From the NCBI GenBank assembly GCA_002841335.1, contig PHEY01000001.1:496964-560963 (forward strand): 64,000 nt of DNA. Direction: 5' to 3'. The stretch comes from Actinobacteria bacterium HGW-Actinobacteria-2. GTDB lineage: Bacteria; Actinomycetota; Actinomycetes; Propionibacteriales; Propionibacteriaceae. The position numbers and the translations under genes were made by a program. Below are positions 17,770-22,492 of the stretch, one piece after another (position 1 is the stretch's first letter; every line of letters begins with the position of its first letter). The notes below the pieces were generated by a model. That model did not search any database, was not told the DNA's origin, and was given only the letters and a program-made list of their open reading frames with translations.

Positions 17770-18876
17770 TCAGTCTTCACTCCCGGCCAGGCTGAGCACC
17801 AATTGCGCCAGTGCATGAGCCGCCCCCGACGGCGCCAACGCCAGGCAGGTGTCCGACATCAGGCGCATCCGAGTCGGGTCGGCGAACAACGACAACACCT
17901 CATTGACCAGGCGATCTGCGGTCAAGTCGGCGTCGTCGACGCGGAGCCCGGCCCGCGCGTTCACCAGGAAGTCGGCATTGCGCGCCTGTTCGCCGTTTCC
18001 GTGCGCCAGTGGGACGAAGATGGTCGGCAAGCCGGTCATGGCCGTCTCCATCACCGTGGCCGCGCCGGAGCGCCCCACCATCAGATCCGCAGCGGCATAG
18101 GCCAGCCCCATCTCGTCAACGAAGGCCAACGGACGGTAGATCGCCCCCGTGGTGGCATCGGTGATCTGGTGATTGGCTTCGGAGAAGTTCGCCGCACCCA
18201 GCACGTGCAGGACGCTGACGCCGGCGGCCAGCAGCCGCGCCGCGGCGGCCTCGGTGGCTCGGTTGATGCTGCGGGCACCTTGGGATCCACCCGAGACCAA
18301 GAGCACCGGGCCGGTCGCAGGCAACTCGAAGGTGGTCCGTGCTTCGCTGCGACGAGCCGCTCGGTTGAGGTCGGCGATGGCTGAACGTACCGGAAGACCC
18401 AGCATCTGGGCGTGCGGCAGGTCGGTTGCCGGGAAGGTCGTGACCACGTGAGGGGTGAACAACGCCGCTACGCGGTTGGCCAGTCCGGCCACTGCATTGC
18501 CTTCGTGGACCACCAGCGGAATCCGCTCCTGTCGGGCCGCGAGGTACACCGGGAGGGACACATAACCGCCGAAACCGACCACGACGTGCGCGTGATGGCC
18601 TCGTAGTAGCGCTCGGGCTTCCGCGGTGGCCTTGCGTAGCCGTACCGGCACCCGGAGCAGATCGCCGGACGGGCGGCGCGGCAGCGGCACCGGAGAGATC
18701 AGCGCCAACTCCAACCCGGCCTCAGGAATGACCCGGGACTCCAGGCCTTTGGGGGTGCCGATGCACAAGATGTCGACGTCAGCGAGGTGTCGCAATTGTT
18801 CAGCGGTGGCGATCAACGGTGACGTGTGGCCGGCGGTTCCCCCACCGGCCATAACCACTCGGATCGGACCGCTCAC
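17770..18876 (-). CDS. murG: UDP-GlcNAc:lipid I N-acetylglucosaminyltransferase
   Basis: Peripheral membrane GT-B transferase that converts lipid I to lipid II. The 368 residues include the N-terminal GGGTAGHTSPL loop, GFGGYVSLPV, the second-domain motif VSGGSQGARSIN, and the UDP-GlcNAc-binding segment RSGAATVMETAMTGLPTIFVPL with NGEQARNAD. GTG at 18876 overlaps the ftsW stop as GTGA. Order ftsW-murG-murC is canonical. Confidence 0.97.
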   Translation of the reverse strand: MSGPIRVVMAGGGTAGHTSPLIATAEQLRHLADVDILCIGTPKGLESRVIPEAGLELALISPVPLPRRPSGDLLRVPVRLRKATAEARALLRGHHAHVVVGFGGYVSLPVYLAARQERIPLVVHEGNAVAGLANRVAALFTPHVVTTFPATDLPHAQMLGLPVRSAIADLNRAARRSEARTTFELPATGPVLLVSGGSQGARSINRATEAAAARLLAAGVSVLHVLGAANFSEANHQITDATTGAIYRPLAFVDEMGLAYAAADLMVGRSGAATVMETAMTGLPTIFVPLAHGNGEQARNADFLVNARAGLRVDDADLTADRLVNEVLSLFADPTRMRLMSDTCLALAPSGAAHALAQLVLSLAGSED

Positions 18877-20141
18877 GATCTGCCTGCCTTTGCTGTGGCC
18901 ACCAGCGCCTTCCCCCGGCGCCGTCGATGCTTGCGAGCATACGCTCGCGCGCCGGGTTCGTTTCGCGCGCAGGCGAGGAGGACGCCCAGGGCCATCAGGT
19001 TGGCCAGCAGCGCTGAGCCACCGTAGGACAGGAACGGCAGCGGCACTCCGAGCACCGGAACCATCCGCAGCACCACCGCGATGTTCAGCAGTGCCTGGAT
19101 CATGAACCAGCTCGTCACGCCGGCCGCGGTGTACCGGGTGAACTTGTCGTCGGAACGCATCGCGATCCGGAAGCCGGCATAACCGAGGGCGACGAACAAC
19201 GCCAGCACGATCAGGGTGCCGACCAGGCCGAGCTCCTCACCGATCACAGCGAACACGTAGTCGGTGTGGGATTCCACCAGACCGCCCCACTTCTGCCGAC
19301 TGGCGCCCAGCCCGAGCCCCCACCAGCCGCCCGAGGCCAGCGCGACGATGGCGGTGATCGGTTGATGGTTCACCCCGAGGGGATCGGCAGTGGGGTTCAG
19401 GAAGCCGACGATGCGGTTCATCCGGTTCGGCGAGGCGATCACCAGGCCCACCACGCCGAGCGCCACCGTCCCGATCACCCCGGTGATCACCTTCAGCGAA
19501 GCCCCCACGTACCACAAGGTGGCCAGCACCAACGCACCCATGATCATGCCGGTGCCGAGGTCGTCCTGAAGCACCACGAGCACGATCAGCAGCAGCGACA
19601 CCGGCAGGAACGGGATCAGCAGCTGCCAGGGATCACTGAGGCGTTTGCCCTTGCGAGCCATGATGTCGGCACCCCACATCACGATCGCCAGCTTGCCCAA
19701 CTCCGAGGGCTGGATCCGGAACCATGGGTTGCCGAACTGCACCCAGTTGGTGTTGCCGTTCATCGAGTGGCCCAGCGGAGTGAAAGTCAGGATCTGCAAC
19801 AGCAGAGAGCCGAGGATCAGTGCCCAAGCGATCACCTTGAGGTGACGGGGCCCGAACCTGGCCAGGATGAACGCGCCGACACCACCCAGCGCCAGGAACA
19901 TCACCTGACGCTTGACGAAGTAGTAGGCGTCACCCCACTGGGTGAAGCCGTAGACGCTGGAAGCCGACAGCACCATCACCATGCCCAAGGTGAGCAGCAG
20001 GATGGCAGGGATGAGCACCAAGTAGAAGCTGGCCATCGGATGGGCCAGCCAATCGAGCACGAGACTTCGCCGACGTCGTAAATCTTGAGACGTCGATTGA
20101 GTACCGTGACGATCCACAATGGGGGAAGCCAGGATCGCCAA
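18873..20141 (-). CDS. ftsW: SEDS-family peptidoglycan polymerase FtsW
   Basis: Septal glycosyltransferase that polymerises lipid II together with FtsI. The 422-residue membrane protein has about ten helices, the SEDS signature region PFRIQPSELGKLA-like (FRIQPSELGKLAIVMWGADIMARK), QDDLGTGMI and the C-terminal VLPLPFLSYGGSALLANL-type motif. A basic cytoplasmic tail follows. The start appears to be TTG at 20141, because AGGGGG lies about eight bases before it and no better codon is near. The basic head extends about 35 residues before helix one. Confidence 0.95.
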   Translation of the reverse strand: MAILASPIVDRHGTQSTSQDLRRRRSLVLDWLAHPMASFYLVLIPAILLLTLGMVMVLSASSVYGFTQWGDAYYFVKRQVMFLALGGVGAFILARFGPRHLKVIAWALILGSLLLQILTFTPLGHSMNGNTNWVQFGNPWFRIQPSELGKLAIVMWGADIMARKGKRLSDPWQLLIPFLPVSLLLIVLVVLQDDLGTGMIMGALVLATLWYVGASLKVITGVIGTVALGVVGLVIASPNRMNRIVGFLNPTADPLGVNHQPITAIVALASGGWWGLGLGASRQKWGGLVESHTDYVFAVIGEELGLVGTLIVLALFVALGYAGFRIAMRSDDKFTRYTAAGVTSWFMIQALLNIAVVLRMVPVLGVPLPFLSYGGSALLANLMALGVLLACARNEPGARAYARKHRRRRGKALVATAKAGRS

Positions 20142-20153
20142 CGAGTCTGCCCC

Positions 20154-20303
20154 CTATCCGGTCAGCTCCGAAGCTGCAGCGGCGACATCATCGCTCTGCG
20201 CTGCCTGGTCGGAAAAGATGTCATCGTCGGCGCAGCCGAAACCCAGCAGCGCGACGAGCTCGGACTGAGCCCGGGACGCTGCCTGATTCACCGCTGTGCG
20301 CAT
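20154..20303 (-). CDS. Possible 49-residue ORF between the truncated murD and ftsW
   Basis: An ATG-to-TAG frame of 49 codons ends 12 bases before the ftsW start. The acidic, Ala-rich product (begins MRTAVNQAASRAQ, ends ASELTG) matches nothing I recognise and is not a piece of the MurD C-terminal domain. GGGGA lies 12 bases before the ATG, a poor fit. It may be a real small gene, a leader for ftsW, or chance in a 252-bp gap. Confidence 0.25.
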   Translation of the reverse strand: MRTAVNQAASRAQSELVALLGFGCADDDIFSDQAAQSDDVAAAASELTG

Positions 20304-20393
20304 AGCTCAATGATTCCCCGAATCGCTCACCAGGAGCGGAATCTCGGCTGCGTGTCGCCTCATCAGGTCGACAATCGACCAGATCGGGATTCG

Positions 20394-21422
20394 TCAGCGC
20401 TCACCCAGGACGAAGCGCCGCAGGCCGTCGGCCACTGCCTGCGGGGGCACCCCGAAAGATCGCGCCAAGGCTGCTGCGGCCAGTGCGTTGGCCACCGTGG
20501 CGGGCTCATCGGAGGCCAGATCGGAGAGTTTGGCGATCTCGATGGCCGAATCCCGCCGCTGAGCGATGAACGCCCGGTCGACCAGCACATCGTCGACCAC
20601 ACCCACCATGGACGGCGCCGGGATGCCGAGGGTGAAGCCGATGGCGCGCGCTCCCTCGATCACATCGGCCTCTTCGACCAGACGTTCAGTGGCCGGATCG
20701 TCGACGTTGTAGACGCACGAGTGTCGGAGCCGCTGATAGATCAGGCCGGTATCGGCGGCATAGCCGGCCATCGGGTCGCCGTCGGCGGTGTCGGCGTACC
20801 AGTCCAACCGGTCGGTGCCCAGGTTCAGCACCGCAGCCGAGTGCAAGCTCAGGCTGTTGGTCCAGTGCAGCTGTGCGCTGGACAACTCCACCGCGAACAC
20901 ATCGTAAGGAGTCTCGTCGAGCACCGCCTCGACCACCGGACGTCCGATGTTACCGACCACGGCCACCGACAATCCGGCCGCCGACAGCATCGACTCCAGC
21001 ATGGTGATCGTGGTGGTCCTGCCGTGAGTTCCGGTGACGCCCAGCCACGGCACGTGGCGGTCGGGCGCGCTCATTCGCCAGGCCAGTTCCACCTCGCCCC
21101 AGATCGGGATCCCGCGGTCACGCGCCTGCGCCAACAGCGGGGCGGACGGACGCCAGCCCGGTGAGGCGACCACCAGATCGACGTCGGTGGGCAGCTGTGC
21201 GGTGGCGCCGGCACCGAGGCGCACCTGAGCGTCCAGAACCTCCAACACGGTGGCCTTCTCGGCATAGTCGGCCGAGTCGGCCTCATCCAGCACCCTCACC
21301 TGGGCGCCGAGTTCGAGCAGACCATCGGCCGCGGCGAAGCCCGACCGGCCCAGCCCGGCAACGACGACCCGGGCCTGCGACCAGTCCGAGAGCCGGTCAG
21401 CGGTGTCGATCCATGGGCTCAC
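20394..21422 (-). pseudogene. murD: Truncated, catalytically degenerate MurD (UDP-MurNAc-L-alanine--D-glutamate ligase)
   Basis: Occupies the murD slot between mraY and ftsW, but encodes 342 residues where MurD normally has 440-490. Domain 1 ([33 protein letters not shown]) and the central domain are in frame with no internal stop. Conserved catalytic positions are changed: the P-loop reads GTHGRTTT (Lys to Arg135), ELSSFQ is ELSSAQ (Ala183), DHLD is DRLD (Arg205) and the carbamylated Lys is Thr225. Translation stops right after [10 protein letters not shown], removing the whole C-terminal ligase domain with its DSKATNP motif, which I cannot find downstream in any frame. The start GTG overlaps the mraY stop (GTGA). 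It is either a decaying gene or a retained pseudoenzyme; MurD activity must come from elsewhere. Confidence 0.85.
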
Positions 21423-22492
21423 TGCTGCCCCACGACCCATTCGGCGTAGAACAGGCCGAGGCCGACCGCCACGAACAGTCCGCAGATGATCCAGAACCGG
21501 ATGGTGATGGTGACTTCCTTCCAGCCCATCAGTTCGAAGTGGTGTTGCAGCGGCGCCATCTTGAACAGTCGCTTGCCCCCGGAGAGCTTGAACCAGCCGA
21601 CCTGGAGCACCACCGAAAGGGTGATGATCACGAACAGGCCTGCGATGATCACCATCAGCAACTCGGTGCGGGTGAGCACCGACAGTCCGGCGAGCGCCCC
21701 ACCGATGGCCAGCGAGCCGGTATCGCCCATGAAGATCTTGGCCGGCGAGGCGTTCCACCACAGGAAGCCGAAACAGGCGCCGGCAAGGGCTATCGACACC
21801 ACCGCCAGGTCGTAGGGGTCGCGCACTTCGTAGCACTGCGGCCCGGCACCGGACGCCAGCGAACAGCTCTGCCCGTACTGCCAGATGTTCACGATGGCGT
21901 AGGCGGCCAGCACCATCGCGGCCGCACCGGTGGCCAGACCGTCCAGGCCGTCGGTGAGGTTGGCTGCGTTCGACCAGGCCGCGATCAAGAAGACGATCCA
22001 GATCACCGCTGCCCACGGCGCGAGCGGCAGCCAGTTGATGTCGCGCAGGAAGGAGATCGCCGGGCTGGCCGGAGTGAGTCCGCGGTTGTCCTTGAACATC
22101 AGCGCGAGCACCGCGAAGGTCACCGCCACCAGACCCTGCAGCGTCAGTTTCATCGGCGCACTCAAGCCCAATGAGCGAGCCTTGCTGATCTTGATCCAGT
22201 CGTCGGCGAATCCCACCAGGCCCAGGCCGGTGAACAGCCCGATCAGCAGCAAGCCGGACGCTGTCGGCACCGTCCAGGTGATCAGGTGGGCAACGGCGTA
22301 GGCGATGATCACGCTCAGGATGATCACCAGGCCGCCCATGGTCGGGGTGCCACGCTTGGTGTGATGGCTGGTGGGGCCGTCATCGCGGATGAACTGACCG
22401 TAGCCACGTCTGACCAGGAACCGGATGGCATAGCGGGTACCCAGCAGGGTGCCCACCATGCCGAGCGCGCCGGCCAACAGAATGCTTCTCAT
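21419..22492 (-). CDS. mraY: Phospho-N-acetylmuramoyl-pentapeptide transferase
   Basis: Polytopic enzyme that transfers phospho-MurNAc-pentapeptide to undecaprenyl phosphate, making lipid I. The 357-residue protein has about ten helices and the catalytic motifs [23 protein letters not shown] and [11 protein letters not shown]. All look intact. ATG at 22492 overlaps the murF stop as ATGA. Its own stop overlaps the GTG of the truncated murD. Confidence 0.97.

Follow-up and report, generated by a model that had tools for sequence, protein, structure and literature searches.

Recurrent truncation of the dcw cluster MurD in Propionibacteriales and its probable retention as a pseudoenzyme beside MurL and MurD2

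The murD gene of the dcw cluster in the 64-kb window (the whole stretch of DNA that was analysed) was found to encode a truncated, non-catalytic protein of 342 amino acids that comprises the N-terminal and central domains, as judged from profile, Pfam, alignment, dN/dS and predicted-fold evidence. Since truncation at the same place was seen in 20 further genomes, it is not a chance event. The observation made in an initial annotation of the window was confirmed and proved larger than first stated, and its interpretation was supported. The best overall explanation, which we consider probable from the sequence comparisons, is that the protein has been retained as a pseudoenzyme and performs a docking or regulatory function for which MurD2 is no substitute.

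The truncated gene (positions 20394..21422, minus strand) was an intact frame of 342 codons with a GTG start, and its GTGA overlapped the stop codon of mraY (21419..22492, minus strand), both as initially claimed; ftsW (18873..20141, minus strand) was the downstream gene. Alignment to E. coli MurD bore out the four active-site substitutions that had been listed, namely Arg135 (codon AGG, 21018..21020, minus strand) in place of the P-loop Lys, Ala183 opposite the Phe of SSFQ, Arg205 opposite the His of EDH and Thr225 opposite the Lys of AAK. The protein scored 188.1 bits against the murD profile TIGR01087, below the curated cut-off of 211.95, and matched positions 1-302 of 441. Pfam detected the N-terminal domain of MurD and the middle domain of Mur ligases, with no match to Mur_ligase_C, and the DSKATNP part of murD was gone from the mraY-ftsW locus. 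Judged as a MurD ligase, the protein therefore had the N-terminal and central fold and lacked the C-terminal domain, the catalytic residues and a score above the cut-off; the predicted structure of what remained was a complete fold (pLDDT 95.8). The claim that the C-terminal domain was absent stood, but the claim that no trace of it remained did not, since a match to the MurD of a relative revealed a decayed remnant of the last 69 codons (20154..20363, minus strand). The remnant, at 20157-20363, was 62% identical to the last 69 residues of the G008 MurD and contained one internal stop; it included a 49-codon open stretch (20154-20303), and its reading frame stopped at 20154, 12 nt before ftsW.

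An assembly fault was considered and judged unlikely, since the window sits within a 684-kb contig and the same truncated form, 74% identical, was present in an independent sister MAG. This separately assembled locus, L063, belongs to MAG G748 (same matches as G004), which is 89% complete. The initial annotation had allowed that a full-length murD in close relatives would point to an artefact in this copy. Full-length genes were indeed found in genomes of the same genus (G008, G015, G019 and G021), but the artefact reading was not borne out because L063 and 19 other MurL-bearing genomes shared the truncation.

It had also been proposed that another enzyme must add D-glutamate, and a profile search of the genome (G000) agreed with this. 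A second, full-length murD with intact ligand sites was found on contig C13 (L001:1438-2784), where it scored 278.9-279.8 bits over profile positions 1-439 and appeared to be of the MurD2 kind. The ORF just before it matched the MurL profile NF041275 (E = 5.9e-88, positions 9-441 of 447). Its score of 295 bits was below the profile cut-off of 700 bits, a Xanthomonadales cut-off that no genome reached in either set searched (391 within the order, 393 outside it). There was no match to murI, the glutamate racemase gene, in this genome; of the 60 genomes in the same search, G000 being one of them, 53 passed the murI cut-off. Because no murI match was found and the MurL and MurD2 genes are neighbours, the sequence evidence suggests that the known MurL/MurD2 route most likely carries out the D-Glu step in G000.

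The available text of PMC8788868 describes MurL and MurD2 as an alternative peptidoglycan pathway in Xanthomonas oryzae, Micromonospora and Salinispora, and the roles of the MurD2 specificity sites were taken from it. The genes in G000 resembled that pathway in adjoining one another, in the lack of a racemase match and, by motif match rather than structure, in having Arg at the position of E. coli Lys348 and Leu, not Lys, at that of Lys319. They differed from it in the low MurL score relative to the Xanthomonadales cut-off and in the third specificity site of MurD2 (the Glu197 position, that is the Glu at the Asp182 position in MurD2), where the motif match gave Asp instead of Glu. MurD2 proteins of the G000 branch that have Asp at this site might accept D-Glu too. 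Propionibacteriales are absent from the distribution given in the available text of PMC8788868, to which the present results would add this order, and a retained dcw MurD is not mentioned in that text.

Within the order, MurL matches were obtained in 26 of 391 genomes, 24 of them strong (>280 bits) and two weak. The weak MurL-like proteins (about 104 bits; G252 and G296), which possibly represent another family, occurred in genomes that kept murI and a full-length MurD. No strong-MurL genome had a murI match over the cut-off (0/24), and weak murI matches of 22-28 bits were seen in five (G049, G242, G275, G279 and G346). Of the 24 strong-MurL genomes, 23 had a readable mraY-ftsW interval (G331 was left out), and in 20 of these, G000 included, it contained an intact ORF whose MurD product was truncated at the C-terminus. 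The remaining three (G286, G308 and G310) had a full-length dcw MurD with its catalytic motifs together with MurL, MurD2 and no murI match, and perhaps represent an early stage. L063 provided the 21st truncated MurD. Neither murI, MurL, MurD2 nor a full-length murD was found in its MAG, and the absence of MurL and MurD2 is perhaps due to the 89% completeness. Among 80 similar loci from named genomes there were 77 full-length ORFs, one truncated ORF (L063) and two that were cut by contig ends. G033, G038, G041, G044, G047, G053, G056 and G059 also had two copies of murD, the second of them full-length and above the family cut-off, but in these cases profile P0002 gave no MurL match. G030, of the same family (90% complete, 540 contigs), had murI but no convincing murD match (best E = 2.6e-17), perhaps because of an assembly gap.

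All 21 truncated proteins ended 4 to 35 residues past the final Gly-Leu of the central domain, 18 of them within 10 residues. On a tree of the neighbouring MraY, FtsW and MurG proteins, which was a quick reconstruction with SH-aLRT support only and full-length rows chosen by similarity (98 loci; 21 truncated, 76 full-length and one undetermined), the state changed between truncated and full-length 12 times, at least 11 of which were forced by starred branches. The MurL/MurD2 pairs likewise fell on separate branches; the G000 pair, itself a long branch in the MurL/MurD2 tree, was placed beside pairs from families that do not belong to the order, at a distance from most of those of Nocardioides.

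Outside the order, 16 of 393 genomes carried MurL, and the dcw locus was readable at least in part in 15 of these (G416 was left out, and the G634 contig ends inside the interval). A truncated MurD of this kind was found in none of the 15. At this locus a full-length MurD was kept in three genomes, MurL-MurD2 stood in its place in two, a C-terminal remnant alone was left in two, and there was no MurD match in eight. A truncated MurD elsewhere in the 16 genomes was looked for with profile A2, which gave 465 and 418 bits on its positive controls (G143 and G188). The strong matches, at 173-179 bits, were the full-length MurDs of G444, G475 and G648, and scores were otherwise 59 bits or lower. Since none of the 15 outside genomes keeps such a protein, the retained job is not universal. 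In G412 (L258) and G536 (L264), MurL and MurD2 occupied the position of murD within the dcw cluster, in the mraY-ftsW interval. The possibility that the 1-kb mraY-murL gap of G412 held a degraded MurD was rejected, as the gap contained an unrelated ORF. The opposite remnant, only a C-terminal MurD piece after mraY, was seen in G560 (L267:6293-6625) and G634 (L269).

To be a pseudoenzyme rather than a fresh pseudogene, as had been preferred from the outset, the protein should show purifying selection as well as loss of catalytic residues, and both were observed. The dN/dS ratio of the truncated MurDs of G000 and L063 was 0.23 (bootstrap 95% interval 0.16-0.31), as against 0.94 (0.44-2.2) for the 49-codon C-terminal remnant of the same two genomes, which served as a neutral control. 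Across 10 pairs of truncated ORFs the ratio ranged from 0.14 to 0.40, compared with 0.05-0.22 in six pairs of full-length MurDs, and the observed ratio was reached by none of 300 neutral simulations in each of five pairs. The dN/dS ratio of mraY between G000 and L063 was 0.05. The truncated MurD thus evolves faster than its neighbours, which indicates that the constraint on it is partly relaxed. The active-site losses were many and differed between lineages. The P-loop motif was lost from 19 of the 21 truncated proteins; since the other two, those of G290 and G336, were truncated yet had the motif, truncation can apparently come first.

Conservation of 95% or more across 70 distinct full-length MurDs defined 113 sites, each of which was scored as kept when 90% or more of the truncated proteins (n = 21) conserved it. 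None of the 13 ligand sites, which we take to be those of E. coli MurD, was kept, compared with 58 of the 100 other conserved sites. Asn158, Glu179 and Ser182 were kept in 24%, 33% and 19% of the truncated proteins, respectively, and the values for the SPG loop were 0.67, 0.52 and 0.57. Codons 243-296 (20535..20696, minus strand) were near-invariant, with 20 of 22 conserved sites kept; this region was chosen after looking at the data, so the Fisher p value is descriptive. Pooled pN/pS in five truncated pairs was 0.11 in this segment and 0.27-0.34 elsewhere. In three full-length pairs the segment had a value of 0.03 and the rest 0.15-0.18, so it evolves most slowly in full-length MurDs too.

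MurD2 showed the opposite pattern. Identity to full-length MurD at the 22 segment sites was 0.98 in 76 full-length proteins, 0.93 in 28 from other orders and 0.16 in 39 MurD2s; the sites were picked as conserved in truncated MurD, whose value of 1.00 arises by construction, and it is the MurD2 value that is informative. The segment was not conserved in MurD2, in which the corresponding stretch was also shorter. At the 13 ligand sites, identity was 0.19 in truncated MurD and 0.83 in MurD2. Because these site-identity patterns are opposite, truncated MurD and MurD2 appear to be complementary successors of the full-length enzyme.

These results can be accommodated in a scheme in which the presence of a MurL/MurD2 pair would have allowed murI to be lost and would have freed the dcw MurD from catalysis, after which the front of its C-terminal domain was deleted and its active site decayed. 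The N-terminal and central domains are still under selection, as shown by dN/dS, recurrence and the site pattern, and selection on these domains suggests that MurD in this order also serves a non-catalytic purpose for which MurD2 does not stand in. That job would most likely be a docking or regulatory contact made through a face that includes residues 243-296, possibly with components of the machinery for division or for lipid II. A role of this kind, close to the divisome or the lipid II machinery, is the mechanism that our analysis supports best, with the partner itself a matter of inference.

A different role for the protein would be to bind MurD2 or MurL and so serve the new route as an activator or a subunit without catalytic activity. 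Pseudoenzyme partners that support an active relative are a known pattern, and the truncated MurD co-occurred with MurL in 20 of 21 genomes. Nevertheless, the same kind of truncated MurD was found beside MurL/MurD2 pairs of clearly different branches, segment 243-296 was equally conserved in full-length MurDs of genomes in which no MurL was found, and the 15 MurL genomes read outside the order do without the protein; we therefore regard this role as unlikely. Binding of UDP-MurNAc-L-Ala, with the protein acting as a sensor or carrier, would be compatible with the intact N-terminal fold of the predicted structure and with the retention of Asn158, Glu179 and Ser182 in the G000 copy. The low frequencies of these three residues among the 21 truncated proteins, the erosion of the SPG loop and the widespread loss of the P-loop make it very unlikely.

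Retention of the ORF solely for reasons of DNA or translation, such as mraY-ftsW coupling or an ftsW promoter, would fit the mraY overlap and the GACAC element upstream of ftsW, both of which persist in most truncated loci. However, selection acted on the amino acids, with pN/pS far below neutral while silent sites changed freely, and an element that falls within the end of the ORF or close to it does not need 342 codons, so we give this reading very little credence. It is less probable still that the gene is a decaying pseudogene caught ahead of its first stop codon. Such decay would account for the missing active-site residues and domain, and for dN/dS values above those of mraY and of the full-length pairs, but it is hard to reconcile with 21 intact ORFs that arose through about a dozen separate losses and remained constrained, next to a truly dead piece that behaves neutrally; unless that remnant is a misleading control, its dN/dS already refutes this reading.

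Pseudoenzymes are inactive relatives of enzymes that are kept for non-catalytic work. The truncated MurD is like them in its lost active site and continued purifying selection; it is unlike them in that it is no duplicate but the original gene, which was displaced, and in having about a dozen origins with loss of the same domain. If the protein is retained for docking or regulation, a wider proposal can be made, on which our opinion is evenly balanced: that actinobacterial MurD is both a ligase and a docking or control platform, located around residues 243-296, which ties precursor synthesis to the division machinery, and that displacement by MurL/MurD2 split these jobs about a dozen times in Propionibacteriales. 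Were this true, the genomes would hold natural separation-of-function mutants, MurD2 having the chemistry without the platform and truncated MurD the platform without the chemistry. Contacts that favour a docking role have been described. According to the available text of PMC3605390, fragment complementation in M. tuberculosis linked Mur ligases, MurD included, to FtsZ, FtsW, FtsQ, Wag31, SepF, PknA and PknB, and MurD to MurI, with no Mur-Mur contacts; a correction to its Figure 5 has since appeared (PMC10965061). In Thermotoga maritima, MurG binds MurD (as cited in the available text of PMC6420597). It has long been asked whether Mur ligases form working complexes with the machinery of the membrane and of division, which is hard to address because their activity is essential. 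Since catalysis seems to have been taken off the dcw MurD, removal or alteration of the truncated gene would test a non-catalytic role alone. Among the matches listed from the open-licence literature, none described a dcw MurD that was truncated or non-catalytic; MurL and MurD2 were already known, and the pruning of the dcw MurD about a dozen times to a two-domain protein under selection is new as far as was searched.

The DNA behind the deletion may have been kept for another reason, as it contains a GACAC element and probably also the promoter of ftsW. A motif match identified CGACACGC, a putative WhiA-type GACAC element, at 20350..20357 (minus strand), approximately 217 nt upstream of ftsW. 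It fell in the C-terminal MurD codons, in the region of the H-[AG]-P motif of full-length genes. The codon CGA was used at this site in 60 of 64 full-length genes with the motif, compared with 183 of 2,242 Arg codons overall; the motif was absent from six further full-length genes. Scored for presence only, CGACACGC occurred in the 420 nt ahead of ftsW in 70 of 75 full-length loci and in 18 of the 21 truncated ones. CGACACGC was not enriched across the 64-kb window, where four copies were found against 9.3 expected (chance level from window shuffles, about 9 per 64 kb on both strands). According to the available text of PMC3781837, WhiA binds a GACAC motif 269 bp upstream of ftsW in Streptomyces venezuelae. 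The element described here is similarly placed in the dcw operon; it differs in being known from its sequence, whereas WhiA binds the S. venezuelae site, and in outliving the coding sequence that held it. DNA junction alignments did not place the edges of the deletion. The recurrent deletion seems to have the retained protein as its left limit and a putative ftsW control element as its right limit. The GACAC element was embedded in C-terminal murD codons and persisted once that coding region was dead, which suggests that a regulatory DNA element here survived the coding sequence around it.
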